NCBI GenBank assembly: GCA_002189035.1
Contig: NEEC01000042.1
Location: 124,001-188,000, forward strand
Origin: Utricularia gibba
Lineage: Eukaryota > Streptophyta > Magnoliopsida > Lamiales > Lentibulariaceae
Length of the DNA: 64,000 bases
Direction of reading: 5' to 3'
The notes below the pieces were generated by a model. That model was not told where the DNA came from, did no database searches, and saw only the letters and a list, made by a program, of their open reading frames with translations. Made by a program: the position numbers and the translations under genes. Below, piece after piece: positions 870-62,210 of the stretch; within the stretch, counting starts at the first letter, position 1; each line of letters opens with the position of its first letter.

Positions 870-1625
870 TTAAATTACGGTATCACGTGCCCTGGTTATA
901 TTCATATTGTGCATTTTGGTGAGGAGAGCAGATTCACCATAAGTTTTCTCAACTTCATTACCATCTCTTAGTTCCAATCTCTTTTCTGTAGATTGCAACT
1001 CAATCATGAACTCTCTAAATGTTGGCTCTGGTGTAACAGGATATTCAGGATACAGCTGATGGAGCTTTCCTTCAATAATGTCAAGGATTTTTCTTTCTGT
1101 CTCAAGTGCACATAACTTTGGCTCGAATCTTGCAGGTAGGCTCATGATTGCCTTGCTAATCACCTTTTGATCCTCAAGTTTTTCCCCCAATCCTCGAATC
1201 TCCTTCACAAGCTTCGCAGTACGTTCATAATAGACTTGTATGGTTTCATTGTCTAACATTTTGTTCCTCTCAAAGTCCTCCAGCTTGTTTTTGCATAATA
1301 TCTCTCTGAGTTTGGCATCGCCTTCATAATGGGATTTGAGAGTATCCCATATTTCTTTTGCTGATTGACACTCTGCAATATCATCAAATAGATGTTCAGA
1401 GATGGCTTGATACAAGGCATCCATTGCTTCATCTTTTCTCTGTTGAAGATACTCAGCTTCCTCTTGCTGTTCTGATGTGGATTTGCTTGTTATTGTAATA
1501 GCCGGAATCTCCCTTTCAACAACATCCCAAATCTTTCTGACCCGAAGGTAGCTGCGCATCTTTTTGACCCAGCTTCCATACTCTGAACCATCAAATATTG
1601 GAGGTCCTCTACCAGATGCCATCAT
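870..1625 (-). pseudogene. gag: Truncated copia-type Gag N-terminal region, open frame, copy 1
   Basis: Gag of copia elements packages the element RNA into cytoplasmic particles. The first true ATG is at 1625 (a GTG lies two codons upstream), giving 251 residues. Residues 11-37, with FDGSEYGSWVKKM and IWDVVE, resemble the DUF4219/gag pre-domain. Residues ~68-168 resemble UBN2 (MDALYQAISEHLF, AKEIWDTLKSHYEG, GLGEKLEDQKVISKAI, SLPARFE). Residues 1-245 come from the element. The last six, ARDTVI, and the TAA stop come from satellite DNA. The CCHC zinc knuckle and all of pol are missing. Residue 206 is Phe here and in copy 2, but Ile in copies 3-6. The open frame is probably a sign of recent amplification and not of function. 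Confidence 0.88.
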
Positions 1626-1731
1626 AGCCACCGCTTGACAAGCTTTGGGTTGATACTTGGTAATCTACCAAGTAAAAAACGCTGAACGGTATATAAAATA
1701 CTGAAACGAACACAGGTTTGAGAACCTTACT

Positions 1732-1743
1732 GCTCTGATACCA
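1732..1743 (-). other. Primer-binding site (tRNA-iMet), copy 1
   Basis: TGGTATCAGAGC on the minus strand directly abuts the CA end of the LTR. It is complementary to the 3' end of plant initiator-methionine tRNA, the usual primer of Ty1/copia elements. Confidence 0.92.
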
Positions 1744-2068
1744 TGTTGTTGCAAGAAAAATAGAGTCTTGGGAAGTAACAAAAAGGTAATGCTTATGAGA
1801 TCACCTTGGATGAAAAACGACTCATGAACAATAAGAATGACCGAAAACCTAATTGACACGCATTTCTAGTAGGGCTTATATATACCAAATACCTAGGTTA
1901 CCCAACAGTGGGCCACAATCATTGAAAACACACAAAAAGCCCAACAACTCGAATCCAACACTTCCATGCTCGAACCCAACACCTTTTTTTATCTGAAATA
2001 TGACATTATGACACAAGTTTAGTTCTTCCAATCACCTTCAAGCTTTGGATTGAGGCTGATCTCCAACA
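1744..2068 (-). repeat. 5' LTR, copy 1
   Basis: This is a 325-bp LTR. It begins TGTTGGAG at 2068 and ends CAACAACA at 1744, so it has the canonical TG...CA with a 5-bp terminal inverted repeat TGTTG/CAACA. The PBS follows at once. It has a TATA box in its middle. No second LTR is present, so insertion age cannot be read from LTR pairs. Confidence 0.92.
1877..1884 (-). promoter_or_regulatory. LTR TATA box, copy 1
   Basis: TATATATA followed by AAGCCC on the minus strand, 184 bp inside the LTR. It is well placed for a U3/R boundary about 25-30 bp downstream. Transcription would run toward gag and then into satellite. Activity is inferred only from the motif. Confidence 0.65.
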
Positions 2069-2202
2069 CTTGGTCCGAGCCCCTGATTCTTTATGGCTCA
2101 TGAGGACAAAAGGATGCAAATCGATGAATACAATGATGCAATTGTTTAAATTACGATATCACGTGCACCCTACATGATTTTTTCAACAACTTACTTTATA
2201 CT
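2069..2202 (+). repeat. Chimeric partial monomer right of insert copy 1
   Basis: It starts in A-type sequence (cttggtccgagcccctgatt), switches to a D/E-type gaatacaatgatg, and ends in an F-type tail. It carries a private gatgcaattg in place of the near-universal gatgcatttg. The same remnant follows all six inserts. Confidence 0.88.
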
Positions 2203-4654
2203 TGAGGAGGTGGTCTTGGGGGGCAAGAGGAACCGGACAAAGGTCAGCTTATGCTTGGGTCGAAAGAAGTTGTAGCCTGACAAAGAAAGTGATCTATTTA
2301 TTAACGTTCGGTTTTCGGGGCTACCTACATGGTTTTTCAAGGAACCGCTTCTCGTTTTGTGGCGGCCAGTCTCGCTGGGAACTTGGTCCTTTACCCCGAT
2401 TCTGTATGGCTCATGAGGTCAACCGAATGCAAATCGATTAAAAAAAATGATGCATTTGTTTAAATTGCGATATGACGTGCACCCCACATGATTTTTTCAA
2501 CAACTTACTTTATACTTGGGGAGGCGGTCTTGGGGTGCACTGGAACGGGACAAAGGTAAGGTTTGGCTTGCGCCGAGAGTTAGTTGTAGCCGACAAATAA
2601 AGTGATAAATTTGATATCGTTCGGTTTTCGGGGGCTACCTACATGGTTTTTCAAGGAACCGCTTCTCGTTTTGTGGCGGCCAGTCTCGCTGGGAACTTGG
2701 TCCTTGACCCCGATTCTGTATGGCTCATGAGGTCAACCGGATGCAAATCGATTAAAAAAAATGATGCATTTGTTTAAATTGCGATATCACGTGCACCCCA
2801 CATGATTTTTTCAACAACTTACTTTATACTTGAGGAGGCGTCTTGGGGTGCACCTGGAACGGGACAAAGGTCAGCTTAGGCTTGGGCAGAAAGTAAGTTG
2901 TAGCCCGCCAAAGAAAGTGATGTATTTATTATCGTTTGGTTTTCGGGGGCTGCCTACATGGTTTTTCAAGGAACCGCTTCTCGTTTTGTGGCGGCCAGTC
3001 TCGCTGGGAACTTGGTCCTTGACCCCGATTCTGTATGGCTCATGAGGTCAACCGGATGCAAATCGATTAAAAAAATGATGCATTTGTTTAAATTGCGATA
3101 TCACGTGCACCCCACATGATTTTTTCAACAACTTACTTTATACTTGAGGAGGCGATCTTAGGGTGCACCTCGAACAGGACAAAGGTAAGGTTTGGCTTGC
3201 GCCGAGAGTTAGTTGTAGCCCGGCAAATAAAGTGATGTATTTATTATCGTTCGGTTTTCGGGGGCTGCCTACATGGTTTTTCAAGGAACCGCTTCTCGTT
3301 TTGTGGCGGCCAGTCTCGCTGGGAACTTGGTCCTTGACCCCGATTCTGTATGGCTCATGGGGTCAACCGGATGCAAATCGAAGAAAAAAAATGATGCATT
3401 TGTTTAAATTACGATATCACGTGCACCCTACATGATTTTTTCGACAACTTACTTTATACATGGGGAGGCGGTCTTGGGGGGTACCTGGAAGCGGAAAATG
3501 GTCAGCTTAGGCTTGGGCCGATAGTAAGTTGTAGCCCGGCAAAGAAAGTGATGTATTTATTATCGTTCGGTTTTCGGGGGTGCCTACATGGTTTTTCAAG
3601 GAACATCTTCTTTTTTGTGGGGCGTCTCGCTGGGAACTTGGTCCTGGCCCTGATTCTTATGGCTTATGAGGTCAACCGGATGCAAATCGATGAAACAATG
3701 ATGCATTTGTTTAAATTACGATATCACGTGCACCCACATGATTTTTTCAACAACTTACTTTATACTTGAGGAGGTGGTCTTGGGGGGCAAGAGGAACCAG
3801 ACAACGGTCATATTAGGCTTGGGCCGAAAGTAAGTTGTAGCCCGGCAAAGAAAGTGATGTATTTATTAACGTTCGGTTTTCAGGGTTGCCTACATGGTTT
3901 TCCAAGGAAAAGCTTTTCGTTTTGTGGCGGCCGCTCTCGCTGGGCACTTGGTCCGGGCCCCTAATTCTTTATGGCTCATGAGGACAAAAGGATGCAAATC
4001 GATGAAAATAATGATGCATTTGTTTAAATTACGATGTCGCGTGCACCCCAAATGATTTTTTTAACAACATACTTTATACATGAGGAGGCGGTCTTGGGGG
4101 CACTTGGAACCGGAAAAAGATCAGCTTAGGCTTGGGCCGAAAGTAAGTTGTAGCCCGGCAAAGAAAGTGATGTATTTATTATCGTTCGGTTTTTGGGGTT
4201 GCCTACATGGTTTTTCAAGGAACATCTTCTCGTTTTGTGGTGGCTAGTCTCGCTGGGAACTTGGTCCTTGACCCGATTCTGTATGGCTCATGGGGTCAAC
4301 CGGATGCAAATCGAAGAAAAAAAATGATGCATTTGTTTAAATTACGATATCACGTGCACCCTACATGATTTTTTCGACAACTTACTTTATACATGGGGAG
4401 GCGGTCTTGGGGGTACCTGGAACCGGAAAATGGTCAGCGTAGGCTTGGGCCGATAGTAAGTTGTAGCCCGACAAATAAAGTAATGTATTTATTATCGTTC
4501 GGTTTCGGAAGCTGCCTAAATGCTTTTTGAAAGAACATCTTCTCGTTTTATGGCGGCCAGTCTCGCTGGGAACTTGGTCCTTGACCCTGGTTCTGTATGG
4601 CTCATGGGGTGATGAAAAAAATGATGCATTTGTTTAAATTACGGTATCACGTGC
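2069..4654 (+). repeat. Satellite block between insert copies 1 and 2
   Basis: It opens with a partial chimeric monomer (2069-2202). Full monomers start at 2203 (G), 2517 (H-like), 2831 (H-like, gcagaaag), 3145 (D'), 3461 (E/F), 3767 (A), 4081 (B) and 4394 (C, cut at 4654 by insert copy 2). The insert-to-insert distance is 3764 bp. Confidence 0.92.
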
Positions 4655-5388
4655 CCTGGTTATATTCATATTGTGCATTTTGGTGAGGAGAGCAGATTCA
4701 CCATAAGTTTTCTCAACTTCATTACCATCTCTTAGTTCCAATCTCTTTTCTGTAGATTGCAACTCAATCATGAACTCTCTAAATGTTGGCTCTGGTGTAA
4801 CAGGATATTCAGGATACAGCTGATGGAGCTTTCCTTCAATAATGTCAAGGATTTTTCTTTCTGTCTCAAGTGCACATAACTTTGGCTCGAATCTTGCAGG
4901 TAGGCTCATGATTGCCTTGCTAATCACCTTTTGATCCTCAAGTTTTTCCCCCAATCCTCGAATCTCCTTCACAAGCTTCGCAGTACGTTCATAATAGACT
5001 TGTATGGTTTCATTGTCTAACATTTTGTTCCTCTCAAAGTCCTCCAGCTTGTTTTTGCATAATATCTCTCTGAGTTTGGCATCGCCTTCATAATGGGATT
5101 TGAGAGTATCCCATATTTCTTTGCTGATTGACACTCTGCAATATCATCAAATAGATGTTCAGAGATGGCTTGATACAAGGCATCCATTGCTTCATCTTTT
5201 CTCTGTTGAAGATACTCAGCTTCCTCTTGCTGTTCTGATGTGGATTTGCTTGTTATTGTAATAGCCGGAATCTCCCTTTCAACAACATCCCAAATCTTTC
5301 TGACCCGAAGGTAGCTGCGCATCTTTTTGACCCAGCTTCCATACTCTGAACCATCAAATATTGGAGGTCCTCTACCAGATGCCATCAT
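4634..5388 (-). pseudogene. gag: Gag N-terminal region with one frameshift, copy 2
   Basis: Same truncated copia Gag as copy 1, but one T is missing from the run at about 5120-5122. The shift falls at about codon 90, in the AKEIWDTL motif of the UBN2-like region. The frame is split into an N-terminal part of about 123 residues, with a wrong tail, and a separate downstream frame. The 3' end again runs six codons into satellite before TAA. Confidence 0.88.
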
Positions 5389-5494
5389 AGCCACCGCTTG
5401 ACAAGCTTTGGGTTGATACTTGGTAATCTACCAAGTAAAAAACGCTGAACGGTATATAAAATACTGAAACGAACACAGGTTTGAGAACCTTACT

Positions 5495-5506
5495 GCTCTG
5501 ATACCA
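5495..5506 (-). other. Primer-binding site (tRNA-iMet), copy 2
   Basis: TGGTATCAGAGC on the minus strand, immediately after the LTR CA end. Confidence 0.91.
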
Positions 5507-5831
5507 TGTTGTTGCAAGAAAAATAGAGTCTTGGGAAGTAACAAAAAGGTAATGCTTATGAGATCACCTTGGATGAAAAACGACTCATGAACAATAAGAA
5601 TGACCGAAAACCTAATTGACACGCATTTCTAGTAGGGCTTATATATACCAAATACCTAGGTTACCCAACAGTGGGCCACAATCATTGAAAACACACAAAA
5701 AGCCCAACAACTCGAATCCAACACTTCCATGCTCGAACCCAACACCTTTTTTTATCTGAAATATGACATTATGACACAAGTTTAGTTCTTCCAATCACCT
5801 TCAAGCTTTGGATTGAGGCTGATCTCCAACA
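5507..5831 (-). repeat. 5' LTR, copy 2
   Basis: 325 bp, TGTTGGAG at 5831 to CAACAACA at 5507, near-identical to copy 1, with no 3' partner. Confidence 0.92.
5640..5647 (-). promoter_or_regulatory. LTR TATA box, copy 2
   Basis: TATATATA on the minus strand at the same LTR offset as in copy 1. Confidence 0.63.
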
Positions 5832-7538
5832 CTTGGTCCGGGCCCCTGATTCTTTATGGCTCATGAGGACAAAAGGATGCAAATCGATGAATACAATGAT
5901 GCAATTGTTTAAATTACGATATCACGTGCACCCTACATGATTTTTTCAACAACTTACTTTATACTTGAGGAGGTGGTCTTGGGGGGCAAGAGGAACCGGA
6001 CAAAGGTCAGCTTATGCTTGGGTCGAAAGAAAGTTGTAGCCTGACAAAGAAAGTGATCTATTTATTAACGTTCGGTTTTCGGGGCTACCTACATGGTTTT
6101 TCAAGGAACCGCTTCTCGTTTTGTGGCGGCCAGTCTCGCTGGGAACTTGGTCCTTTACCCCGATTCTGTATGGCTCATGAGGTCAACCGAATGCAAATCG
6201 ATTAAAAAAAATGATGCATTTGTTTAAATTGCGATATGACGTGCACCCCACATGATTTTTTTCAACACTTACTTTATACTTGGGGAGGTGGTCTTGGGGT
6301 GCACCTGGAACGGGACAAAGGTAAGGTTTGGCTAGCGCCGAGAGTTAGTTGTAGCCCGACAAATAAAGTGATAAATTTGATATCGTTCGGTTTTCAGGGG
6401 CTACCTACATGGTTTTTCAAGGAACCGCTTCTCGTTTTGTGGCGGCCAGTCTCGCTGGGAACTTGGTCTTTGACCCCGATTCTGTATGGCTCATGAGGTC
6501 AACCGGATGCAAATCGATTAAAAAAAATGATGCATTTGTTTAAATTGCGGTATGACGTGCACCCCACATGATTTTTTTCAACAACTTACTTTATACTTCA
6601 GGAGGCGGTCTTGGGGTGCACCTGGAACGGGACAAAGGTCAGCTTAGGCTTGGGCAGAAAGTAAGTTGTAGCCCGCCAAAGAAAGTGATGTATTTATTAT
6701 CGTTTGGTTTTCGGGGTTGCCTACATGGTTTTTCAAGGAACATCTTCTCGTTTTGTGGCGGCCAGTCTCGCTGGGAGCTTTGTCCTGGACCCCGATTCTG
6801 TATGGCTCATGGGGTCAAAAGGATGCAAATCGATGAATAAATGATGCATTTGTTTCAATTACGATATCACGTGCACCCCACATGATTTTTTCGACAACTT
6901 ACTTTATACATGGGGAGGCGGTCTTGGGGGGTACCTGGAACCGGAAAATGGTCAGCTTAGGCTTGGGCCGATAGTAAGTTGTAGCCCGGCAAAGAAAGTG
7001 ATGTATTTATTATCGTTCGGTTTTCGGGGGCTTCCTACATGGTTTTTCAAGGAACATCTTCTCGTTTTGTGGCAGCCAGTCTCGCTGGGAGCTTTGTCCT
7101 GGACCCCGATTCTGTATGGCTCATGGGGTCAAAAGGATGCAAATCGATGAATACAATGATGCATTTGTTTCAATTACGATATCACGTGCACCCCACATGA
7201 TTTTTTCGACAACTTACTTTATACATGGGGAGGCGGTCTTGGGGGTACCTGGAACCGGAAAATGGTCAGCTTAGGCTTGGGCCGATAGTAAGTTGTAGCC
7301 CGGCAAGAAAGTGATGTATTTATTAACGTTCGGTTTTCGGGGTTGCCTACATGGTTTTTCAAGGAACATCTTCCCGTTTTGTGGTGGCTAGTCTCGCTGG
7401 GAACTTTGTCCTGGACCTCGATTCTTTATGTCTTATGAGGTCAACCGGATGCAAATCGATGAAAAAAATTGATGCATTTGTTTAAATTACGATATCACGT
7501 GCACCCTACATGATTTTTTCAACAACTTACTTTATACT
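5832..7538 (+). repeat. Satellite block right of insert copy 2
   Basis: Chimeric partial monomer 5832-5965, then starts at 5966 (G), 6281 (H-like), 6598 (H-like, start reads tcagg), 6911 (E) and 7226 (F). After this the insert-free central array begins. Confidence 0.9.
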
Positions 7539-7852
7539 TGAGGAGGTGGTCTTGGGGGGCAAGAGGAACCAGACAACGGTCATATTAGGCTTGGGCCGAA
7601 AGTAAGTTGTAGCCCGGCAAAGAAAGTGTTGTATTTATTAACGTTCGGTTTTCAGGGTTGCCTACATGGTTTTCCAAGGAAAAGCTTTTCGTTTTGTGGC
7701 GGCCGCTCTCGCAGGGCACTTGGTCCGGGCCCCTGATTCTTTATGGCTCATGAGGACAAAAGTATGCAAATCGATGAAAATAATGATGCATTTGTTTAAA
7801 TTACGATGTCGCGTGCACCCCAAATGATTTGTTTAACAACATACTTTATACA

Positions 7853-8167
7853 TGAGGAGGCGGTCTTGGGGGGCACTTGGAACCGGAAAAAGATCAGCTT
7901 AGGCTTGGGACGAAAGTAAGTTGTAGCCCGGCAAAGAAAGTGATGTATTTATTATCGTTCGGTTTACGGGGGCTTCCTACATGGTTTTTCAAGGAACATC
8001 TTCTCGTTTTATGGCGGCCAGTCTCGCTGGGAACTTGGTCCTTGACCCTGGTTCTGTATGGCTAATGGGGTCAACCGGATGCAAATCGATGAAAAAAAAT
8101 GATGCATTTGTTTAAATTGCGATATCACATGCACCCACATGATTTTTTCAACAACTTACTTTATACT
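7853..8167 (+). repeat. Hybrid satellite monomer B/E/C
   Basis: The head is B (gcacttggaaccggaaaaag). The middle is E (ggtttacgggggcttcctac). The tail is C (ttttatggcggcc, ccctggttctg, attgcgatatc). It replaces the B-C pair in the HOR units at 7539, 8796, 10052, 11620 and 12559, making those units shorter than the canonical cycle. Confidence 0.8.
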
Positions 8168-8481
8168 TGAGGAGGCGATCTTAGGGTGCACCTCGAACAG
8201 GACAAAGGTAAGGTTTGGCTTGCGCCAAGAGTTAGTTGTAGCCCGACAAAGAAAGTGATGTATTTATTATCGTTCGGTTTTTGGGGTTGCCTACATGGTT
8301 TTTCAAGGAACATCTTCTCGTTTTGTGGCAGCCAGTCTCGCTGGGAGCTTTGTCCTGGACCCCGATTCTGTATGGCTCATGGGGTCAAAAGGATGCAAAT
8401 CGATGAATACAATGATGCATTTGTTTCAATTACGATATCACGTGCACCCCACATGATTTTTTCGACAACTTACTTTATACA

Positions 8482-8795
8482 TGGGGAGGCGGTCTTGGGG
8501 GGTACCTGGAACCGGAAAATGGTCAGCTTAGGCTTGGGCCGATAGTAAGTTGTAGCCCGGCAAAGAAAGTGATGTATTTATTAACGTTCGGTTTTCGGGG
8601 TTGCCTACATGGTTTTTCAAGGAACATCTTCCGTTTTGTGGTGGCTAGTCTCGCTGGGAACTTTGTCCTGGACCTCGATTCTTTATGTCTTATGAGGTCA
8701 ACCGGATGCAAATCGATGAAAAAAATTGATGCATTTGTTTAAATTACGATATCACGTGCACCCTACATGATTTTTTCAACAACTTACTTTATACT
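8482..8795 (+). repeat. Satellite monomer subtype F (exemplar)
   Basis: Subtype F shares the gtacctggaaccgg head with E. It then has tattaacgttcggttttcgg, gtggtggctagtctcgctgg, gacctcgattctttatgtct, tatgaggtcaaccgg and aaaaaattgatgc. Its end, caacaacttactttatactt, leads into the gaggaggtgg of the next A. It usually closes a HOR unit. Confidence 0.84.
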
Positions 8796-10051
8796 TGAGG
8801 AGGTGGTCTTGGGGGGCAAGAGGAACCAGACAACGGTCATATTAGGCTTGGGCCGAAAGTAAGTTGTAGCCCGGCAAAGAAAGTGATGTATTTATTAACG
8901 TTCGGTTTTCAGGGTTGCCTACATGGTTTTCCAAGGAAAAGCTTTCGTTTTGTGGCGGCCCTCTCGCAGGGCACTTGGTCCGGGCCCCTGATTCTTTATG
9001 GCTCATGAGGACAAAAGGATGCAAATCGATGAAAATAATGATGCATTTGTTTAAATTACGATGTCGCGTGCACCCCAAATGATTTTTTTAACAACATACT
9101 TTATACATGAGGAGGCGGTCTTGGGGGGCACTTGGAACCGGAAAAAGATCAGCTTAGGCTTGGGACGAAAGTAAGTTGTAGCCCGGCAAAGAAAGTGATG
9201 TATTTATTATCGTTCGGTTTACGGGGGCTTCCTACATGGTTTTTCAAGGAACATCTTCTCGTTTTATGGCGGCCAGTCTCGCTGGGAACTTGGTCCTTGA
9301 CCCTGGTTCTGTATGGCTAATGGGGTCAACCGGATGCAAATCGATGAAAAAAAATGATGCATTTGTTTAAATTGCGATATCACATGCACCCCACATGATT
9401 TTTTCAACAACTTACTTTATACTTGAGGAGGCGATCTTAGGGTGCACCTCGAACAGGACAAAGGTAAGGTTTGGCTTGCGCCAAGAGTTAGTTGTAGCCC
9501 GACAAAGAAAGTGATGTATTTATTATCGTTCGGTTTTTGGGGTTGCCTACATGGTTTTTCAAGGAACATCTTCTCGTTTTGTGGCAGCCAGTCTCGCTGG
9601 GAGCTTTGTCCTGGACCCCGATTCTGTATGGCTCATGGGGTCAAAAGGATGCAAATCGATGAATACAATGATGCATTTGTTTCAATTACGATATCACGTG
9701 CACCCCACATGATTTTTTCGACAACTTACTTTATACATGGGGAGGCGGTCTTGGGGGGTACCTGGAACCGGAAAATGGTCAGCTTAGGCTTGGGCCGATA
9801 GTAAGTTGTAGCCCGGCAAGAAAGTGATGTATTTATTAACGTTCGGTTTTCGGGGTTGCCTACATGGTTTTTCAAGGAACATCTTCCCGTTTTGTGGTGG
9901 CTAGTCTCGCTGGGAACTTTGTCCTGGACCTCGATTCTTTATGTCTTATGAGGTCAACCGGATGCAAATCGATGAAAAAAATTGATGCATTTGTTTAAAT
10001 TACGATATCACGTGCACCCTACATGATTTTTTCAACAACTTACTTTATACT
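8796..10051 (+). repeat. Four-monomer HOR unit A-BC-D-F, unit 2
   Basis: 1256 bp. Monomers start at 8796 (A), 9108 (BC), 9424 (D) and 9738 (F). Confidence 0.88.
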
Positions 10052-49082: not shown

Positions 49083-49814
49083 CCTGGTTATATTCATATT
49101 GTGCATTTTGGTGAGGAGAGCAGATTCACCATAAGTTTTCTCAACTTCATTACCATCTCTTAGTTCCAATCTCTTTTCTGTAGATTGCAACTCAATCATG
49201 ATCTCTCTAAATGTTGGCTCTGGTGTAACAGGATATTCAGGATACAGCTGATGGAGCTTTCCTTCAATAATGTCAAGGATTTTTCTTTCTGTCTCAAGTG
49301 CACATAACTTTGGCTCGAATCTTGCAGGTAGGCTCATGATTGCCTTGCTAATCACCTTTTGATCCTCAAGTTTTTCCCCAATCCTCGAATCTCCTTCACA
49401 AGCTTCGCAGTACGTTCATAATAGACTTGTATGGTTTCATTGTCTAACATTTTGTTCCTCTCAAAGTCCTCCAGCTTGTTTTTGCATAATATCTCTCTGA
49501 GTTTGGCATCGCCTTCATAATGGGATTTGAGAGTATCCCATATTTCTTTTGCTGATTGACACTCTGCAATATCATCAAATAGATGTTCAGAGATGGCTTG
49601 ATACAAGGCATCCATTGCTTCATCTTTTCTCTGTTGAAGATACTCAGCTTCCTTGCTGTTCTGATGTGGATTTGCTTGTTATTGTAATAGCCGGAATCTC
49701 CCTTTCAACAACATCCCAAATCTTTCTGACCCGAAGGTAGCTGCGCATCTTTTTGACCCAGCTTCCATACTCTGAACCATCAAATATTGGAGGTCCTCTA
49801 CCAGATGCCATCAT
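49062..49814 (-). pseudogene. gag: Gag N-terminal region with two frameshifts, copy 3
   Basis: Same truncated copia Gag, broken twice. Two bases are missing near 49651-49655 (about codon 55, in the Q/E-rich linker before the UBN2-like region). One C is missing from the run at about 49376-49379 (about codon 147, in the GLGEKLED motif). Net loss is 3 bp, so the downstream frame is restored after the second lesion, but the middle is read in a wrong frame. The end again uses six satellite codons. Confidence 0.87.
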
Positions 49815-49920
49815 AGCCACCGCTTGACAAGCTTTGGGTTGATACTTGGTAATCTACCAAGTAAAAAACGCTGAACGGTATATAAAATACTGAAACGAAC
49901 ACAGGTTTGAGAACCTTACT

Positions 49921-49932
49921 GCTCTGATACCA
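49921..49932 (-). other. Primer-binding site (tRNA-iMet), copy 3
   Basis: TGGTATCAGAGC on the minus strand, adjacent to the LTR CA end. Confidence 0.91.
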
Positions 49933-50257
49933 TGTTGTTGCAAGAAAAATAGAGTCTTGGGAAGTAACAAAAAGGTAATGCTTATGAGATCACCTTGGAT
50001 GAAAAACGACTCATGAACAATAAGAATGACCGAAAACCTAATTGACATGCATTTCTAGTAGGGCTTATATATACCAAATACCTAGGTTACCCAACAGTGG
50101 GCCACAATCATTGAAAACACACAAAAAGCCCAACAACTCGAATCCAACACTTCCATGCTCGAACCCAACACCTTTTTTTATCTGAAATATGACATTATGA
50201 CACAAGTTTAGTTCTTCCAATCACCTTCAAGCTTTGGATTGAGGCTGATCTCCAACA
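49933..50257 (-). repeat. 5' LTR, copy 3
   Basis: 325 bp with TG...CA ends, near-identical to the other five; no 3' partner. Confidence 0.92.
50066..50073 (-). promoter_or_regulatory. LTR TATA box, copy 3
   Basis: TATATATA on the minus strand at the conserved LTR offset. Confidence 0.63.
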
Positions 50258-53200
50258 CTTGGTCCGAGCCCCTGATTCTTTATGGCTCATGAGGACAAAA
50301 GGATGCAAATCGATGAATACAATGATGCAATTGTTTAAATTACGATATCACGTGCACCCTACATGATTTTTTCAACAACTTACTTTATACTTGAGGAGGT
50401 GGTCTTGGGGGGCAAGAGGAACCGGACAAAGGTCAGCTTATGCTTGGGTCGAAAGTAAGTTGTAGCCTGACAAAGAAAGTGATCTATTTATTAACGTTCG
50501 GTTTTCGGGGCTACCTACATGGTTTTTCAAGGAACCGCTTCTCGTTTTGTGGCGGCCAGTCTCGCTGGGAACTTGGTCCTTTACCCCGATTCTGTATGGC
50601 TCATGAGGTCAACCGAATGCAAATCGATTAAAAAAAATGATGCATTTGTTTAAATTGCGATATGACGTGCACCCCACATGATTTTTTTCAACAACTTTCT
50701 TTATACTTGGGGAGGCGGTCTTGGGTGCACCTGGAACGGGACAAAGGTCAGCTTAGGCTTGGGCAGAAAGTAAGTTGTAGCCCGGCAAATAAAGTGATAA
50801 ATTTATATCGTTCGGTTTTCGGGGCTACCTACATGGTTTTTCAAGGAACCGCTTCTCGTTTTGTGGCGGCCAGTCTCGCTGGGAACTTGGTCTTTGACCC
50901 CGATTCTGTATGGCTCATGAGGTCAACCGGATGCAAATCGATTAAAAAAAATGATGCATTTGTTTAAATTGCGATATGACGTGCACCCCACATGATTTTT
51001 TTCAACAACTTACTTTATACTTGAGGAGGCGGTCTTGGGGTGCACCTGGAACGGGACAAAGGTCAGCTTAGGCTTGGGCAGAAAGTAAGTTGTAGCCCGG
51101 CAAAGAAAGTGATGTATTTATTATCGTTCGGTTTTTGGGGCTGCCTACATGGTTTTCCAAGGAACATCTTCTCGTTTTGTGGCAGCCAGTCTCGCTGGGA
51201 GCTTTGTCCTGGACCCGATTCTGTATGGCTCATGGGGTCAAAAGGATGCAAATCGATGAATACAATGATGCATTTGTTTAAATTACGATATCACGTGCAC
51301 CCTACATGATTTTTTCAACAACTTACTTTATACATGGGGAGGCGGTCTTGGGGGGTACCTGGAACCGGAAAATGGTCAGCTTAGGCTTGGGCCGATAGTA
51401 AGTTGTAGCCCGGCAAAGAAAGTGATGTATTTATTATCGTTCGGTTTTTGGGGGCTGCCTACATGGTTTTTCAAGGAAAATCTTCTCGTTTTGTGGTGGC
51501 TAGTCTCGCAGGGAACTTGTCCTGACCCCGATTCTGTATGGCTCATGGGGTCAACCGGATGCAAATCGAAGAAAAAAAATGATGCATTTGTTTAAATTAC
51601 GATATCACGTGCACCCTACATGATTTTTTTCGACAACTTACTTTATACATGGGGAGGCGGTCTTGGGGGTACCTGGAACTGGAAAATGGTCAGCGTAGGC
51701 TTGGGCCGATAGTAAGTTGTAGCCCGACAAATAAAGTAATGTATTTATTATCGTTCGGTTTTCGGAAGCTGCCTAAATGCTTTTTGAAAGAACATCTTCT
51801 CGTTTTATGGCGGCCAGTCTCGCTGGGAACTTGGTCCTTGACCCTTCTGTATGGCTCATGGGGTCAACCGGATGCAAATCGATGAAAAAAAATGATGCAT
51901 TTGTTTAAATTGCGATATCACGTGCACCCCACATGATTTTTTCAACAACTTACTTTATACTTGAGGAGGCGATCTTAGGGTGCACCTCGAACAGGACAAA
52001 GGTAAGGTTTGGCTTGCGCCGAGAGTTAGTTGTAGCCCGACAAATAAAGTGATGTATTTATTATCGTTCGGTTTTCGGGGCTGCCTACATGGTTTTTCAA
52101 GGAACCGCTTCTCGTTTTGTGGGCCAGTCTCGCTGGGAACTTGGTCCTTGACCCCGATTCTGTATTGCTCATGAGGTCAACCGGATGCAAATCAATTAAA
52201 AAAAATGATGCATTTGTTTAAATTACGATGTCACGTGCACCCCACATGATTTTTTTAACAACATACTTTATACATGAGGAGGCAGTCTTTGAGTGCATTT
52301 GGAACGGGACAAAGGTAAGGTTTTGCGTGCACCGAAAGTAAGTTGTAGCCCGGCAAAGAAAGTGATGTATTTATTAACGTTCGGTTTTCAGGGTTGCCTA
52401 CATGGTTTTCCAAGGAAAAGCTTTTCGTTTTGTGGCGGCCGCTCTCGCTGGGCACTTGGTCCGGGCCCCTGATTCTTTATGGCTCATGAGGACAAAATGA
52501 TGCAAATCGATGAAAATAATGATGCATTTGTTTAAATTACGATGTCGCGTGCACCCCAAATGATTTTTTTAACAACATACTTTATACATGAGGAGGCGGT
52601 CTTGGGGGGCACTTGGAACCGGAAAAAGATCAGCTTAGGCTTGGGCCGAAAGTAAGTTGTAGCCCGGCAAAGAAAGTGATGTATTTATTATCGTTCGGTT
52701 TTTGGGGTTGCCTACATGGTTTTTCAAGGAACATCTTCTCGTTTTGTGGCTAGTTTCGCTGGGAACTTGGTCCTTGACCCCGATTCTGTATGGCTCATGG
52801 GGTCAACCGGATGCAAATCGAAGAAAAAAAATGATGCATTTGTTTAAATTACGATATCACGTGCACCCTACATGATTTTTTCGACAACTTACTTTATACA
52901 TGGGGAGGCGGTCTTGGGGGTACCTGGAACCGGAAAATGGTCAGCTTAGGCTTGGGCCGATAGTAAGTTGTAGCCCGGCAAAGAAAGGGATGTATTTATT
53001 ATCGTTCGGTTTTGGGGGCTGCCTACATGGTTTTTCAAGGAAAATCTTCTCGTTTTGTGGTGGCTAGTCTCGCAGGGAACTTGTCCTCGACCCCGATTCT
53101 GTATGGCTCATGGGGTCAACCGGATGCAAATCGAAGAAAAAAAATGATGCATTTGTTTAAATTACGATATCACGTGCACCCTACATGATTTTTTCGACAA

Positions 53201-54734
53201 CTTACTTTATACATGGGGAGGCGGTCTTGGGGGGTACCTGGAACTGGAAAATGGTCAGCGTAGGCTTGGGCCGATAGTAAGTTGTAGCCCGACAAATAAA
53301 GTAATGTATTTATTATCGTTCGGTTTTCGGAAGCTGCCTAAATGCTTTTTGAAAGAACATCTTCTCGTTTTATGGCGGCCAGTCTCGCTGGGAACTTGGT
53401 CCTTGACCCTGGTTCTGTATGGCTCATGGGTCAACCGGATGCAAATCGATGAAAAAAAATGATGCATTTGTTTAAATTGCGATATCACGTGCACCCCACA
53501 TGATTTTTTCAACAACTTACTTTATACTTGAGGAGGCGATCTTAGGGTGCACCTCGAACAGGACAAAGGTAAGGTTTGGCTTGCGCCGAGAGTTAGTTGT
53601 AGCCCGACAAATAAAGTGATGTATTTATTATCGTTCGGTTTTCGGGGGCTGCCTACATGGTTTTTCAAGGAACCGCTTCTCGTTTTGTGGTGGCCAGTCT
53701 CGCTGGGAACTTGGTCCTTGACCCCGATTCTGTATTGCTCATGAGGTCAACCGGATGCAAATCAATTAAAAAAAATGATGCATTTGTTTAAATTACGATG
53801 TCACGTGCACCCCACATGATTTTTTTAACAACATACTTTATACATGAGGAGGCAGTCTTTGAGTGCATTTGGAACGGGACAAAGGTAAGGTTTTGCGTGC
53901 ACCGAAAGTAAGTTGTAGCCCGGCAAAGAAAGTGATGTATTTATTAACGTTCGGTTTTCAGGGTTGCCTACATGGTTTTCCAAGGAAAAGCTTTTCGTTT
54001 TGTGGCGGCCGCTCTCGCTGGGCACTTGGTCCGGGCCCCTGATTCTTTATGGCTCATGAGGACAAAATGATGCAAATCGATGAAAATAATGATGCATTTG
54101 TTTAAATTACGATGTCGCGTGCACCCCAAATGATTTTTTTAACAACATACTTTATACATGAGGAGGCGGTCTTGGGGGCACTTGGAACCGGAAAAAGATC
54201 AGCTTAGGCTTGGGCCGAAAGTAAGTTGTAGCCCGGCAAAGAAAGTGATGTATTTATTATCGTTCGGTTTTTGGGGTTGCCTACATGGTTTTTCAAGGAA
54301 CATCTTCTCGTTTTGTGGTGGCTAGTTTCGCTGGGAACTTGGTCCTTGACCCCGATTCTGTATGGCTCATGGGGTCAACCGGATGCAAATCGAAGAAAAA
54401 AATGATGCATTTGTTTAAATTACGATATCACGTGCACCCTACATGATTTTTTCGACAACTTACTTTATACATGGGGAGGCGGTCTTGGGGGGTACCTGGA
54501 ACCGGAAAATGGTCAGCTTAGGCTTGGGCCGATAGTAAGTTGTAGCCCGGCAAAGAAAGTGATGTATTTATTATCGTTCGGTTTACGGGGCTTCCTAAAT
54601 GCTTTTTGAAAGAACATCTTCTCGTTTTATGGCGGCCAGTCTCGCTGGGAACTTGGTCCTTGACCCTGGTTCTGTATGGCTCATGGGGTGATGAAAAAAA
54701 ATGATGCATTTGTTTAAATTACGGTATCACGTGC
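50258..54734 (+). repeat. Satellite block between insert copies 3 and 4
   Basis: Chimeric remnant 50258-50391, then starts at 50392 G, 50708 H-like, 51022 H-like, 51335 E, 51650 C, 51962 D', 52275 H/A, 52589 B, 52901 E, 53214 C, 53529 D', 53845 H/A, 54159 B, 54472 E/C (cut at 54734). The five-monomer order C-D'-HA-B-E occurs twice in a row at a period of about 1564-1570 bp. Confidence 0.88.
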
Positions 54735-55469
54735 CCTGGTTATATTCATATTGTGCATTTTGGTGAGGAGAGCAGATTCACCATAAGTTTTCTCAACTTC
54801 ATTACCATCTCTTAGTTCCAATCTCTTTTCTGTAGATTGCAACTCAATCATGATCTCTCTAAATGTTGGCTCTGGTGTAACAGGATATTCAGGATACAGC
54901 TGATGGAGCTTTCCTTCAATAATGTCAAGGATTTTTCTTTCTGTCTCAAGTGCACATAACTTTGGCTCGAATCTTGCAGGTAGGCTCATGATTGCCTTGC
55001 TAATCACCTTTTGATCCTCAAGTTTTTCCCCCAATCCTCGAATCTCCTTCACAAGCTTCGCAGTACGTTCATAATAGACTTGTATGGTTTCATTGTCTAA
55101 CATTTTGTTCCTCTCAAAGTCCTCCAGCTTGTTTTTGCATAATATCTCTCTGAGTTTGGCATCGCCTTCATAATGGGATTTGAGAGTATCCCATATTTCT
55201 TTTGCTGATTGACACTCTGCAATATCATCAAATAGATGTTCAGAGATGGCTTGATACAAGGCATCCATTGCTTCATCTTTTCTCTGTTGAAGATACTCAG
55301 CTTCCTCTTGCTGTTCTGATGTGGATTTGCTTGTTATTGTAATAGCCGGAATCTCCCTTTCAACAACATCCCAAATCTTTCTGACCCGAAGGTAGCTGCG
55401 CATCTTTTTGACCCAGCTTCCATACTCTGAACCATCAAATATTGGAGGTCCTCTACCAGATGCCATCAT
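54714..55469 (-). pseudogene. gag: Truncated copia-type Gag N-terminal region, open frame, copy 4
   Basis: 251 codons from the first ATG. The encoded protein is identical to copies 5 and 6 and differs from copy 1 only at residue 206 (Ile for Phe). DUF4219-like region at residues 11-37, UBN2-like at ~68-168, then an acidic tail ending at residue 245; the last six residues are satellite-encoded. No zinc knuckle, so RNA packaging by this product is unlikely. Confidence 0.88.
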
Positions 55470-55575
55470 AGCCACCGCTTGACAAGCTTTGGGTTGATAC
55501 TTGGTAATCTACCAAGTAAAAAACGCTGAACGGTATATAAAATACTGAAACGAACACAGGTTTGAGAACCTTACT

Positions 55576-55587
55576 GCTCTGATACCA
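55576..55587 (-). other. Primer-binding site (tRNA-iMet), copy 4
   Basis: TGGTATCAGAGC on the minus strand, adjacent to the LTR CA end. Confidence 0.91.
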
Positions 55588-55912
55588 TGTTGTTGCAAGA
55601 AAAATAGAGTCTTGGGAAGTAACAAAAAGGTAATGCTTATGAGATCACCTTGGATGAAAAACGACTCATGAACAATAAGAATGACCGAAAACCTAATTGA
55701 CATGCATTTCTAGTAGGGCTTATATATACCAAATACCTAGGTTACCCAACAGTGGGCCACAATCATTGAAAACACACAAAAAGCCCAACAACTCGAATCC
55801 AACACTTCCATGCTCGAACCCAACACCTTTTTTTATCTGAAATATGACATTATGACACAAGTTTAGTTCTTCCAATCACCTTCAAGCTTTGGATTGAGGC
55901 TGATCTCCAACA
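55588..55912 (-). repeat. 5' LTR, copy 4
   Basis: 325 bp with TG...CA ends; same sequence lineage as copies 3, 5 and 6 (gacatgcat). Confidence 0.92.
55721..55728 (-). promoter_or_regulatory. LTR TATA box, copy 4
   Basis: TATATATA on the minus strand at the conserved LTR offset. Confidence 0.63.
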
Positions 55913-56046
55913 CTTGGTCCGAGCCCCTGATTCTTTATGGCTCATGAGGACAAAAGGATGCAAATCGATGAATACAATGATGCAATTGTTTAAATTACGA
56001 TATCACGTGCACCCTACATGATTTTTTCAACAACTTACTTTATACT

Positions 56047-56360
56047 TGAGGAGGTGGTCTTGGGGGGCAAGAGGAACCGGACAAAGGTCAGCTTATGCTT
56101 GGGTCGAAAGTAAGTTGTAGCCTGACAAAGAAAGTGATCTATTTATTAACGTTCGGTTTTCGGGGCTACCTACATGGTTTTTCAAGGAACCGCTTCTCGT
56201 TTTGTGGCGGCCAGTCTCGCTGGGAACTTGGTCCTTTACCCCGATTCTGTATGGCTCATGGGGTCAACCGGATGCAAATCGAAGAAAAAAAATGATGCAT
56301 TTGTTAAATTACGATATCACGTGCACCCTACATGATTTTTTCGACAACTTACTTTATACA
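56047..56360 (+). repeat. Satellite monomer subtype G (insert-associated)
   Basis: Subtype G has caagaggaaccggacaaagg, cagcttatgcttgggtcg, tagcctgacaaag, a gatctatttattaacg variant of the conserved block, ggggctacctacatgg, aaccgcttctcg and cctttaccccg. Full G monomers occur only as the first complete monomer after an insert, at 2203, 5966, 50392, 56047, 59196 and 62345; part of a G-like sequence recurs at 62657. This subtype is a marker of the insert-bearing HOR. Confidence 0.86.
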
Positions 56361-56991
56361 TGGGGAGGCGGTCTTGGGGGTACCTGGAACTGGAAAATGG
56401 TCAGCGTAGGCTTGGGCCGATAGTAAGTTGTAGCCCGACAAATAAAGTAATGTATTTATTATCGTTCGGTTTTCGGAAGCTGCCTAAATGCTTTTTGAAA
56501 GAACATCTTCTCGTTTTATGGCGGCCAGTCTCGCTGGGAACTTGGTCCTTGACCCTGGTTCTGTATGGCTCATGGGGTCAACCGGATGCAAATCGATGAA
56601 AAAAAATGATGCATTTGTTTAAATTGCGATATCACGTGCACCCCACATGATTTTTTCAACAACTTACTTTATACTTGAGGAGGCGATCTTAGGGTGCACC
56701 TCGAACAGGACAAAGGTAAGGTTTGGCTTGCGCCGAGAGTTAGTTGTAGCCCGACAAATAAAGTGATGTATTTATTATCGTTCGGTTTTCGGGGGCTGCC
56801 TACATGGTTTTTCAAGGAACCGCTTCTCGTTTTGTGGTGGCCAGTCTCGCTGGAAACTTGGTCCTTGACCCCGATTCTGTATTGCTCATGAGGTCAACCG
56901 GATGCAAATCAATTAAAAAAAATGATGCATTTGTTTAAATTACGATGTCACGTGCACCCCACATGATTTTTTTAACAACATACTTTATACA

Positions 56992-57305
56992 TGAGGAGGC
57001 AGTCTTTGAGTGCATTTGGAACGGGACAAAGGTAAGGTTTTGCGTGCACCGAAAGTAAGTTGTAGCCCGGCAAAGAAAGTGATGTATTTATTAACGTTCG
57101 GTTTTCAGGGTTGCCTACATGGTTTTCCAAGGAAAAGCTTTTCGTTTTGTGGCGGCCGCTCTCGCTGGGCACTTGGTCCGGGCCCCTGATTCTTTATGGC
57201 TCATGAGGACAAAATGATGCAAATCGATGAAAATAATGATGCATTTGTTTAAATTACGATGTCGCGTGCACCCCAAATGATTTTTTTAACAACATACTTT
57301 ATACA
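56992..57305 (+). repeat. Hybrid satellite monomer H/A
   Basis: The first ~65 bp are subtype H (gcagtctttgagtgcatttg, ggttttgcgtgcacc). From gaaagtaagttg onward the monomer is subtype A, including GCGGCCGC and gtccgggcccctg. The switch lies at the edge of the conserved agtaagttgtagcccg block. The same hybrid is present at 48195, 52275, 53845, 60141 and 63262, so it arose once and spread with the HOR. Confidence 0.82.
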
Positions 57306-57862
57306 TGAGGAGGCGGTCTTGGGGGCACTTGGAACCGGAAAAAGATCAGCTTAGGCTTGGGCCGAAAGTAAGTTGTAGCCCGGCAAAGAAAGTGATGTAT
57401 TTATTATCGTTCGGTTTTTGGGGTTGCCTACATGGTTTTTCAAGGAACATCTTCTCGTTTTGTGGTGGCTAGTTTCGCTGGGAACTTGGTCCTTGACCCC
57501 GATTCTGTATGGCTCATGGGGTCAACCGGATGCAAATCGAAGAAAAAAAATGATGCATTTGTTTAAATTACGATATCACGTGCACCCTACATGATTTTTT
57601 CGACAACTTACTTTATACATGGGGAGGCGGTCTTGGGGGGTACCTGGAACCGGAAAATGGTCAGCTTAGGCTTGGGCCGATAGTAAGTTGTAGCCCGGCA
57701 AAGAAAGTGATGTATTTATTATCGTTCGGTTTACGGGGGCTTCCTAAATGCTTTTTGAAAGAACATCTTCTCGTTCTATGGCGGCCAGTCTCGCTGGGAA
57801 CTTGGTCCTTGACCCTGGTTCTGTATGGCTCATGGGGTGATGAAAAAAAATGATGCATTTGT

Positions 57863-58618
57863 TTAAATTACGGTATCACGTGCCCTGGTTATATTCATAT
57901 TGTGCATTTTGGTGAGGAGAGCAGATTCACCATAAGTTTTCTCAACTTCATTACCATCTCTTAGTTCCAATCTCTTTTCTGTAGATTGCAACTCAATCAT
58001 GATCTCTCTAAATGTTGGCTCTGGTGTAACAGGATATTCAGGATACAGCTGATGGAGCTTTCCTTCAATAATGTCAAGGATTTTTCTTTCTGTCTCAAGT
58101 GCACATAACTTTGGCTCGAATCTTGCAGGTAGGCTCATGATTGCCTTGCTAATCACCTTTTGATCCTCAAGTTTTTCCCCCAATCCTCGAATCTCCTTCA
58201 CAAGCTTCGCAGTACGTTCATAATAGACTTGTATGGTTTCATTGTCTAACATTTTGTTCCTCTCAAAGTCCTCCAGCTTGTTTTTGCATAATATCTCTCT
58301 GAGTTTGGCATCGCCTTCATAATGGGATTTGAGAGTATCCCATATTTCTTTTGCTGATTGACACTCTGCAATATCATCAAATAGATGTTCAGAGATGGCT
58401 TGATACAAGGCATCCATTGCTTCATCTTTTCTCTGTTGAAGATACTCAGCTTCCTCTTGCTGTTCTGATGTGGATTTGCTTGTTATTGTAATAGCCGGAA
58501 TCTCCCTTTCAACAACATCCCAAATCTTTCTGACCCGAAGGTAGCTGCGCATCTTTTTGACCCAGCTTCCATACTCTGAACCATCAAATATTGGAGGTCC
58601 TCTACCAGATGCCATCAT
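57863..58618 (-). pseudogene. gag: Truncated copia-type Gag N-terminal region, open frame, copy 5
   Basis: 251-codon open frame with the same encoded protein as copies 4 and 6 (Ile206), ending in six satellite codons and TAA. Domain content and missing parts are as in copy 4. Its identity to copies 4 and 6 shows recent segmental amplification and not separate insertion. Confidence 0.88.
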
Positions 58619-58724
58619 AGCCACCGCTTGACAAGCTTTGGGTTGATACTTGGTAATCTACCAAGTAAAAAACGCTGAACGGTATATAAAATACTGAAAC
58701 GAACACAGGTTTGAGAACCTTACT

Positions 58725-58736
58725 GCTCTGATACCA
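58725..58736 (-). other. Primer-binding site (tRNA-iMet), copy 5
   Basis: TGGTATCAGAGC on the minus strand, adjacent to the LTR CA end. Confidence 0.91.
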
Positions 58737-59061
58737 TGTTGTTGCAAGAAAAATAGAGTCTTGGGAAGTAACAAAAAGGTAATGCTTATGAGATCACCTT
58801 GGATGAAAAACGACTCATGAACAATAAGAATGACCGAAAACCTAATTGACATGCATTTCTAGTAGGGCTTATATATACCAAATACCTAGGTTACCCAACA
58901 GTGGGCCACAATCATTGAAAACACACAAAAAGCCCAACAACTCGAATCCAACACTTCCATGCTCGAACCCAACACCTTTTTTTATCTGAAATATGACATT
59001 ATGACACAAGTTTAGTTCTTCCAATCACCTTCAAGCTTTGGATTGAGGCTGATCTCCAACA
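58737..59061 (-). repeat. 5' LTR, copy 5
   Basis: 325 bp with TG...CA ends; no 3' partner. Confidence 0.92.
58870..58877 (-). promoter_or_regulatory. LTR TATA box, copy 5
   Basis: TATATATA on the minus strand at the conserved LTR offset. Confidence 0.63.
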
Positions 59062-61032
59062 CTTGGTCCGAGCCCCTGATTCTTTATGGCTCATGAGGAC
59101 AAAAGGATGCAAATCGATGAATACAATGATGCAATTGTTTAAATTACGATATCACGTGCACCCTACATGATTTTTTCAACAACTTACTTTATACTTGAGG
59201 AGGTGGTCTTGGGGGGCAAGAGGAACCGGACAAAGGTCAGCTTATGCTTGGGTCGAAAGTAAGTTGTAGCCTGACAAAGAAAGTGATCTATTTATTAACG
59301 TTCGGTTTTCGGGGCTACCTACATGGTTTTTCAAGGAACCGCTTCTCGTTTTGTGGCGGCCAGTCTCGCTGGGAACTTGGTCCTTTACCCCGATTCTGTA
59401 TGGCTCATGGGGTCAACCGGATGCAAATCGAAGAAAAAAAATGATGCATTTGTTTAAATTACGATATCACGTGCACCCTACATGATTTTTTCGACAACTT
59501 ACTTTATACATGGGGAGGCGGTCTTGGGGGGTACCTGGAACTGGAAAATGGTCAGCGTAGGCTTGGGCCGATAGTAAGTTGTAGCCCGACAAATAAAGTA
59601 ATGTATTTATTATCGTTCGGTTTTCGGAAGCTGCCTAAATGCTTTTTGAAAGAACCTTCTCGTTTTATGGCGGCCAGTCTCGCTGGGAACTTGGTCCTTG
59701 ACCCTGGTTCTGTATGGCTCATGGGGTCAACCGGATGCAAATCGATGAAAAAAAATGATGCATTTGTTTAAATTGCGATATCACGTGCACCCCACATGAT
59801 TTTTTCAACAACTTACTTTATACTTGAGGAGGCGATCTTAGGGTGCACCTCGAACAGGACAAAGGTAAGGTTTGGCTTGCGCCGAGAGTTAGTTGTAGCC
59901 CGACAAATAAAGTGATGTATTTATTATCGTTCGGTTTTCGGGGGCTGCCTACATGGTTTTTCAAGGAACCGCTTCTCGTTTTGTGGTGGCCAGTCTCGCT
60001 GGGAACTTGGTCCTTGACCCCGATTCTGTATTGCTCATGAGGTCAACCGGATGCAAATCAATTAAAAAAAATGATGCATTTGTTTAAATTACGATGTCAC
60101 GTGCACCCCACATGATTTTTTTAACAACATACTTTATACATGAGGAGGCAGTCTTTGAGTGCATTTGGAACGGGACAAAGGTAAGGTTTTGCGTGCACCG
60201 AAAGTAAGTTGTAGCCCGGCAAAGAAAGTGATGTATTTATTAACGTTCGGTTTTCAGGGTTGCCTACATGGTTTTCCAAGGAAAAGCTTTTCGTTTTGTG
60301 GCGGCCGCTCTCGCTGGGCACTTGGTCCGGGCCCCTGATTCTTTATGGCTCATGAGGACAAAATGATGCAAATCGATGAAAATAATGATGCATTTGTTTA
60401 AATTACGATGTCGCGTGCACCCCAAATGATTTTTTTAACAACATACTTTATACATGAGGAGGCGGTCTTGGGGGGCACTTGGAACCGAAAAAGATCAGCT
60501 TAGGCTTGGGCCGAAAGTAAGTTGTAGCCCGGCAAAGAAAGTGATGTATTTATTATCGTTCGGTTTTTGGGGTTGCCTACATGGTTTTTCAAGGAACATC
60601 TTCTCGTTTTGTGGTGGCTAGTTTCGCTGGGAACTTGGTCCTTGACCCCGATTCTGTATGGCTCATGGGGTCAACCGGATGCAAATCGAAGAAAAAAAAA
60701 TGATGCATTTGTTTAAATTACGATATCACGTGCACCCTACATGATTTTTTCGACAACTTACTTTATACATGGGGAGGCGGTCTTGGGGGGTACCTGGAAC
60801 CGGAAAATGGTCAGCTTAGGCTTGGGCCGATAGTAAGTTGTAGCCCGGCAAAGAAAGTGATGTATTTATTATCGTTCGGTTTACGGGGGCTTCCTAAATG
60901 CTTTTTGAAAGAACATCTTCTCGTTCTATGGCGGCCAGTCTCGCTGGGAACTTGGTCCTTGACCCTGGTTCTGTATGGCTCATGGGGTGATGAAAAAAAT
61001 GATGCATTTGTTTAAATTACGGTATCACGTGC
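59062..61032 (+). repeat. Satellite part of composite HOR unit 2
   Basis: Remnant 59062-59195, then G, C, D', H/A, B and E/C as in unit 1. The E/C monomer shares a ttctatggcgg variant with unit 1 (near 57775 and 60925), which is not present left of copy 4. Confidence 0.88.
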
Positions 61033-61767
61033 CCTGGTTATATTCATATTGTGCATTTTGGTGAGGAGAGCAGATTCACCATAAGTTTTCTCAACTTCAT
61101 TACCATCTCTTAGTTCCAATCTCTTTTCTGTAGATTGCAACTCAATCATGATCTCTCTAAATGTTGGCTCTGGTGTAACAGGATATTCAGGATACAGCTG
61201 ATGGAGCTTTCCTTCAATAATGTCAAGGATTTTTCTTTCTGTCTCAAGTGCACATAACTTTGGCTCGAATCTTGCAGGTAGGCTCATGATTGCCTTGCTA
61301 ATCACCTTTTGATCCTCAAGTTTTTCCCCCAATCCTCGAATCTCCTTCACAAGCTTCGCAGTACGTTCATAATAGACTTGTATGGTTTCATTGTCTAACA
61401 TTTTGTTCCTCTCAAAGTCCTCCAGCTTGTTTTTGCATAATATCTCTCTGAGTTTGGCATCGCCTTCATAATGGGATTTGAGAGTATCCCATATTTCTTT
61501 TGCTGATTGACACTCTGCAATATCATCAAATAGATGTTCAGAGATGGCTTGATACAAGGCATCCATTGCTTCATCTTTTCTCTGTTGAAGATACTCAGCT
61601 TCCTCTTGCTGTTCTGATGTGGATTTGCTTGTTATTGTAATAGCCGGAATCTCCCTTTCAACAACATCCCAAATCTTTCTGACCCGAAGGTAGCTGCGCA
61701 TCTTTTTGACCCAGCTTCCATACTCTGAACCATCAAATATTGGAGGTCCTCTACCAGATGCCATCAT
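61012..61767 (-). pseudogene. gag: Truncated copia-type Gag N-terminal region, open frame, copy 6
   Basis: 251-codon open frame, same encoded protein as copies 4 and 5, with the six-residue satellite tail. No zinc knuckle or pol follows. Confidence 0.88.
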
Positions 61768-61873
61768 AGCCACCGCTTGACAAGCTTTGGGTTGATACTT
61801 GGTAATCTACCAAGTAAAAAACGCTGAACGGTATATAAAATACTGAAACGAACACAGGTTTGAGAACCTTACT

Positions 61874-61885
61874 GCTCTGATACCA
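61874..61885 (-). other. Primer-binding site (tRNA-iMet), copy 6
   Basis: TGGTATCAGAGC on the minus strand, adjacent to the LTR CA end. Confidence 0.91.
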
Positions 61886-62210
61886 TGTTGTTGCAAGAAA
61901 AATAGAGTCTTGGGAAGTAACAAAAAGGTAATGCTTATGAGATCACCTTGGATGAAAAACGACTCATGAACAATAAGAATGACCGAAAACCTAATTGACA
62001 TGCATTTCTAGTAGGGCTTATATATACCAAATACCTAGGTTACCCAACAGTGGGCCACAATCATTGAAAACACACAAAAAGCCCAACAACTCGAATCCAA
62101 CACTTCCATGCTCGAACCCAACACCTTTTTTTATCTGAAATATGACATTATGACACAAGTTTAGTTCTTCCAATCACCTTCAAGCTTTGGATTGAGGCTG
62201 ATCTCCAACA
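61886..62210 (-). repeat. 5' LTR, copy 6
   Basis: 325 bp with TG...CA ends; no 3' partner. Confidence 0.92.
62019..62026 (-). promoter_or_regulatory. LTR TATA box, copy 6
   Basis: TATATATA on the minus strand at the conserved LTR offset. Confidence 0.63.

Follow-up and report, generated by a model that had tools for sequence, protein, structure and literature searches.

The window analysed in this work is a 64-kb stretch of Utricularia gibba DNA (G000:C477:124001-188000), nearly all of which consists of a satellite with a monomer of ~313 bp. Our analyses have identified within this satellite six copies of a 1.18-kb non-satellite block (~1,175 bp), each carrying part of a copia-type retrotransposon. 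The searches covered the 100-Mb, 516-contig assembly, and the genome-wide repeat counts obtained from it are lower bounds. A conserved 38-base satellite word has at least 7,773 matches across the assembly, corresponding to a satellite total of ~2.4 Mb if one monomer per match is assumed; because the satellite is so abundant, the insert-bearing units are a small subset of it. Among the matches listed, the satellite is found on small contigs (e.g. C477, C15, and C39), and telomere repeats, likewise among the matches listed in a telomere-repeat search, on large contigs (e.g. C1-C3). A literature search by monomer length gave no identification of this satellite. The features of the window, including its higher-order repeats (HORs), are as follows:

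747-890, plus strand: left satellite flank common to all copies, ~144 bp, 16-bp deletion included (alignment)
845-846, plus strand: site at which 16 bp of satellite, CAACCGGATGCAAATC, are deleted, only beside the insert
870-1622, minus strand: gag-derived frame, 243 codons of gag followed by 7 of satellite, in which it also terminates (Pfam)
884-893, plus strand: left join of satellite and gag, CACGTGC followed by CCTGGTTA (array compared with satellite and element sequence)
891-2068, minus strand: insert copy 1, truncated copia (5' gag part, primer binding site, 5' LTR), element proper from ~894
891-4654, plus strand: one unit of the 3.77-kb insert-bearing HOR, H*GJPCaDA; the block starts upstream at C477:113566
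1732-1743, minus strand: primer binding site TGGTATCAGAGC adjoining the LTR (sequence)
1744-2068, minus strand: complete 325-bp LTR, TGTTG...CAACA, with TATATAAG motif, ends as in dispersed full-length copies
2069-2417, plus strand: right satellite flank common to all copies, ~349 bp, begins CTTGGTCC (alignment)
4655-5831, minus strand: insert copy 2 (flank alignment)
5832-49082, plus strand: satellite lacking the insert, with several other HOR orders, e.g. LIDABK (monomer order)
49083-50257, minus strand: insert copy 3 (flank alignment)
54735-55912, minus strand: insert copy 4 (flank alignment)
54735-61032, plus strand: two units of the 3.149-kb insert-bearing HOR, H*GBCMA, 99.97% identical
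57884-59061, minus strand: insert copy 5 (flank alignment)
61033-62210, minus strand: insert copy 6 (flank alignment)

Read on the minus strand, the insert consists of a 5' LTR, a primer binding site (PBS), and the first 243 codons of gag, which bears out the LTR-PBS-gag fragment proposed in a sequence-only reading of this window. The PBS matches what we take to be the usual plant initiator tRNA-Met site, and the gag portion was recognised in a Pfam scan of a slightly longer ORF (870-1631) as the copia-type gag domain Retrotran_gag_2 (PF14223; E=2.3e-27). The end of the insert has been corrected to 2068, since the LTR runs from 1744 to 2068. The truncation of the element is demonstrated: the array fragment has one LTR only, and the window copies, each of which ends within gag, lack a second LTR and pol, so that they are not intact autonomous copia elements. 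All six are 99.6-100% identical to copy 1, with differences limited to a few SNPs and short indels when they are aligned together with 300 bp of flank. Among the window copies, four out of six have the satellite-fused frame open, and the 243-codon gag frame is open in 14 of the 25 copies that were found in the assembly, one of the 14 being shorter by 1 residue.

The same alignment with 300 bp of flank shows that both junctions and the 16-bp deletion to the left of the insert are the same in 6/6 window copies, as the sequence-only reading had maintained, and the deletion is found only beside the insert. Genome-wide, this deletion scar was detected at 22 places (with at most 2 mismatches), all adjoining the insert, and it is present in 25/25 copies from the fetched arrays when one indel is allowed. 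The right edge of the insert is the exact LTR terminus, the same as that of the dispersed LTRs described below; because the window LTR ends exactly where they end, we regard this as the integration edge. A "chimeric remnant" had been suggested for the right side; the junction there is indeed shared by the copies, but it is a clean LTR end. What is chimeric is the join on the left, where the insert breaks off within gag at an edge not made by integration. Here the satellite reads CACGTGCACCCC, the element reads TTGCACCTGAGGTTA, and the array has CACGTGC joined to CCTGGTTA, which possibly reflects a 6-bp microhomology (TGCACC) between satellite and element with the loss of 3 bp. Between the two flanks ~211 bp of satellite is missing, as calculated from a 1,277-bp insert-bearing interval; therefore one deletion of ~4.3 kb, comprising the 3' part of the element and some of the flank, suffices. 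A diagnostic word of the right flank occurs exactly at 19 places, only at insert copies, and the closest insert-free relative of the right-flank monomer (C39:15851) has 13 differences from it and an uninterrupted site. A full-length insertion with both LTRs at this satellite site was not found in the assembly search.

Outside the window, the exact left-junction word has 25 matches in the assembly, all in a single orientation, which are distributed over contigs C477 (13), C39 (4), C513 (4), C15 (3), and C21 (1). The right-junction word has 23 exact matches, or 24 with one indel allowed; contig C21 stops within the 25th copy, before its right junction. Reversed-pattern controls gave 0 matches. 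Hence, the earlier count of six copies is correct for the window, and the assembly holds at least 25 copies on five satellite contigs. Contigs C477, C21, and C513 end inside the array, and the right end of C477 may be allelic to C39 and C513, so that the 25 copies do not necessarily belong to one haplotype. Homopolymer-type indels among the copies indicate assembly noise.

Relatives of the insert are dispersed elsewhere in the genome. The six dispersed copies that were fetched with their flanks are 5.3-5.4 kb long and have paired 325-bp LTRs, and four of the six are bordered by 5-bp target duplications (viz. AATTT, AGTCA, TTTCA, and TAGAT). The pieces of one broken dispersed copy follow the copia order, viz. 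Pol_BBD and gag_pre-integrs, SH3_retrovirus, and RVT_2; the integrase core gave no match in the searched pieces of this copy. On the basis of the TG...CA LTRs, the target duplications, the domain order, and the gag domain, the donor family is a Ty1/copia LTR retrotransposon. The genome search that had been recommended for the parent and the junction words has yielded 5.3-kb two-LTR relatives and the junction matches (25 left, 23 right), and comparison with these relatives supports the earlier claim that the 3' part was lost. Of the dispersed copies examined, the one nearest to the insert has 98.98% identity with it. In an alignment, five substitutions are shared by all of the complete array copies (24/24) and by none of the dispersed ones (0/24). 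A 36-base word spanning two of the private sites has 24 exact matches, none of them outside the arrays, and each of its 40 dispersed matches departs from it at two sites, so that 0/40 carry the array haplotype. The array copies form one clade with support of 100/99. At the level of sequence, the shared junctions, the five private substitutions, and this single clade demonstrate a single origin of the array copies.

Members of the dispersed family are clustered in the assembly (G000) at C4:1.98-2.05 Mb, where there are 9 copia-family matches in 70 kb, as well as at C402:2.545-2.59 Mb, C413:2.93-3.03 Mb, and C2:2.868-2.918 Mb; these clusters may mark centromeric or pericentromeric patches. One dispersed copy (L022; C510:88001-96000) has identical LTRs, no matching target duplication in its flanks, and a single long reading frame spanning the coding region. 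Close to the start of contig C477 lies a distinct non-satellite sequence (L046; C477:885-2500) with internal inverted matches, which also matches the flanks of the dispersed copia copies L020-L022 and is another repeat from the same neighbourhoods.

For the analysis of the HORs, 161 kb from the five contigs was split into 435 monomers. The insert occurs in three HOR arrangements, at spacings of 3.1-6.8 kb. These are EOS*GJ... (C477:103-112 kb, C15, and C21), H*GJPCaDA with a period of 3.77 kb (C477:113-130 kb), and H*GBCMA with a period of 3.14 kb (C477:178-192 kb, C39, and C513). Adjacent monomers differ by ~37 edits per ~313 bp, as against identities of 99.94-99.97% between units, which identifies these arrays as HORs. 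Neighbouring 3.77-kb units are 99.94-99.95% identical, with one comparison at 99.13%, and the 3.77-kb and 3.149-kb units are 97.36% alike; the latest copies are thus demonstrably recent. The transposon fragment, with its fixed junctions, lies within repeat units of ~3.1 and ~3.8 kb, and the array, with its 25 copies, is a composite satellite. Monomer order and unit identities of up to 99.97% uphold the proposed HOR amplification, except that it took place in three arrangements and not in one. The middle 43 kb of the window (5832-49082) is an insert-free HOR, and it separates two insert-bearing blocks.

All copies share the demonstrated core of insert and immediate flanks, and beyond it the neighbours change at positions inside the satellite. 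On the left flank, the breakpoints lie at 154-165 bp for one group and at 294-339 bp in copy C477:113566, which is a visible hybrid of the EOS*GJ and H*GJPCaDA arrangements; on the right flank they lie at 200-350 bp. The exchanges kept register, because all monomers without an insert in the 435-monomer set are 287-318 bp long. At two SNPs within the insert (alignment columns 121, A>T, and 998, C>T), the EOS*GJ and 3.77-kb arrangements retain the ancestral state of the dispersed copies and most 3.14-kb units have the derived one; to judge from these two columns, the 3.14-kb HOR is the derived arrangement. Some 3.14-kb units (C477:188146, C477:191272, and C513:30835) show ancestral or intermediate states, which suggest exchange between lineages and a history that is no simple ladder.

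These observations are most readily explained by one insertion, followed by one ~4.3-kb deletion and then by repeated unequal exchange (probability about 0.88). A Ty1/copia element close to the still dispersed members would have inserted once, at CTTGG, into a ~313-bp satellite monomer, and a later deletion of ~4.3 kb would have removed the 3' LTR, pol, and distal gag together with ~211 bp of satellite. The remainder would be the 5' LTR-PBS-gag block, with the 16-bp deletion lying 45 bp to its left. This broken block would then have been copied as part of the array by unequal, in-register exchange between monomers (crossing-over or conversion), acquiring successive neighbours from the EOS*GJ arrangement through the 3.77-kb HOR to the derived 3.14-kb HOR; the placing of the deletion after integration, the process of copying, and which of the first two HORs came earlier are what we infer. 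A single capture followed by copying had been proposed from the window itself, and the identical junctions, five private substitutions, and one well-supported clade support it.

The first step could have been of another kind, in which no whole element ever integrated and end joining introduced an incomplete linear cDNA, or a piece copied from the genome, into broken satellite, with the LTR end being one cDNA end, the other end a microhomology join, and the later copying unchanged from our preferred reading. The single LTR that is left, a left join that can be aligned on TGCACC, and the ~211 bp of satellite missing between the flanks are all in keeping with such an event. We nevertheless consider it unlikely, as the insert stops on the right precisely at the LTR terminus that the dispersed full-length copies have, and elements that inserted normally commonly lose their 3' part, with no further assumption required. 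Several independent insertions of one element family might be envisaged from its dispersal in ~40 copies matching the 36-base word, but an identical internal truncation point and identical flanks, with the five private substitutions and one clade, make their probability negligible. The earlier argument that independent insertions could not explain the copies thus holds, and we reject them on the common junctions and private SNPs.

The multiplication of the units could likewise be due to extrachromosomal circles, copied by rolling circle and reinserted, in place of unequal crossing-over in the chromosome. Runs of near-identical units (99.94-99.97%) and the presence of units on several contigs would accord with circles, and their reinsertion by homology would look the same as crossing-over. 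However, mixed neighbours, homologous breakpoints in register, and graded change of the HORs are what crossing-over or conversion predicts, so that circles are unneeded and we hold their involvement to be rather improbable. It is far less probable still that one insertion was multiplied by misassembly of satellite reads: the ends of contigs C477, C21, and C513 inside the array and indels resembling sequencing noise point in this direction, but the 25 copies lie in three monomer contexts at spacings of 3.1-6.8 kb and their insert SNPs agree with the HOR type. Insertion, deletion, and unequal exchange, in that order, hence remain our preferred explanation.

The insert is most likely a functionless passenger. 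The open gag frame is no evidence of use, because copies as recent as these would be expected to have kept it open. It is conceivable, though very improbable, that the kept LTR with its TATA motif provides each unit with a promoter in the same direction, and that the HOR has thereby made regularly spaced antisense satellite transcription units which help the array to spread or persist. The insert is useful as a natural tag within the satellite. Since every copy has one origin and two scars, the neighbours gained and lost reveal the remodelling of the HORs, viz. the block that was kept, the positions of exchange, and the order in which the units arose. Such histories are usually hidden, as satellite monomers resemble each other.

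For Arabidopsis centromeres, the copying of ATHILA elements has been a subject of discussion. The type of event described here is already known and involves no new mechanism; the array is a clear example whose merit lies in showing side by side the insertion, the truncation, the common core, and the succession of HORs. Satellites containing retrotransposon pieces are known in plants, as had been remarked for this window, from the table entry for rye E3900 (PMC9659126) and from maize CRM1TR (PMC3648361). In maize, CRM1TR and CRM4TR are tandem repeats with LTR-UTR parts of retrotransposons, explained by illegitimate recombination with loss of internal sequence (PMC3648361); there the repeat unit is itself derived from a retrotransposon, whereas the present element joined an already existing satellite as a guest and was amplified along with it. 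Satellite DNA of Lathyrus sativus that originated from Ogre retrotransposons expands from short tandem repeats within Ogre (PMC7004042), in contrast to a satellite that captured a truncated element. For Brachypodium, a passage of PMC10910784 suggests that centromeric CRM copies were duplicated after integration; those are Ty3/gypsy elements, and the present case is one truncated copia with common junctions within HOR units. A close parallel is provided by the rye B-chromosome satellites E3900 and D1100; according to the table of PMC9659126, E3900 includes a piece derived from gag of the retrotransposon Crwydryn, so that E3900 and the present array both have a retrotransposon gag fragment inside a long tandem unit. 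As far as that table describes the rye case, the present array differs in having a Ty1/copia donor whose family persists at dispersed sites, a fragment with the whole LTR and the PBS, and an otherwise ordinary ~313-bp satellite as host. With retrotransposon DNA that is still recognisable after its uptake by a satellite, the array represents a stage early in the making of composite satellites of the rye E3900 kind.
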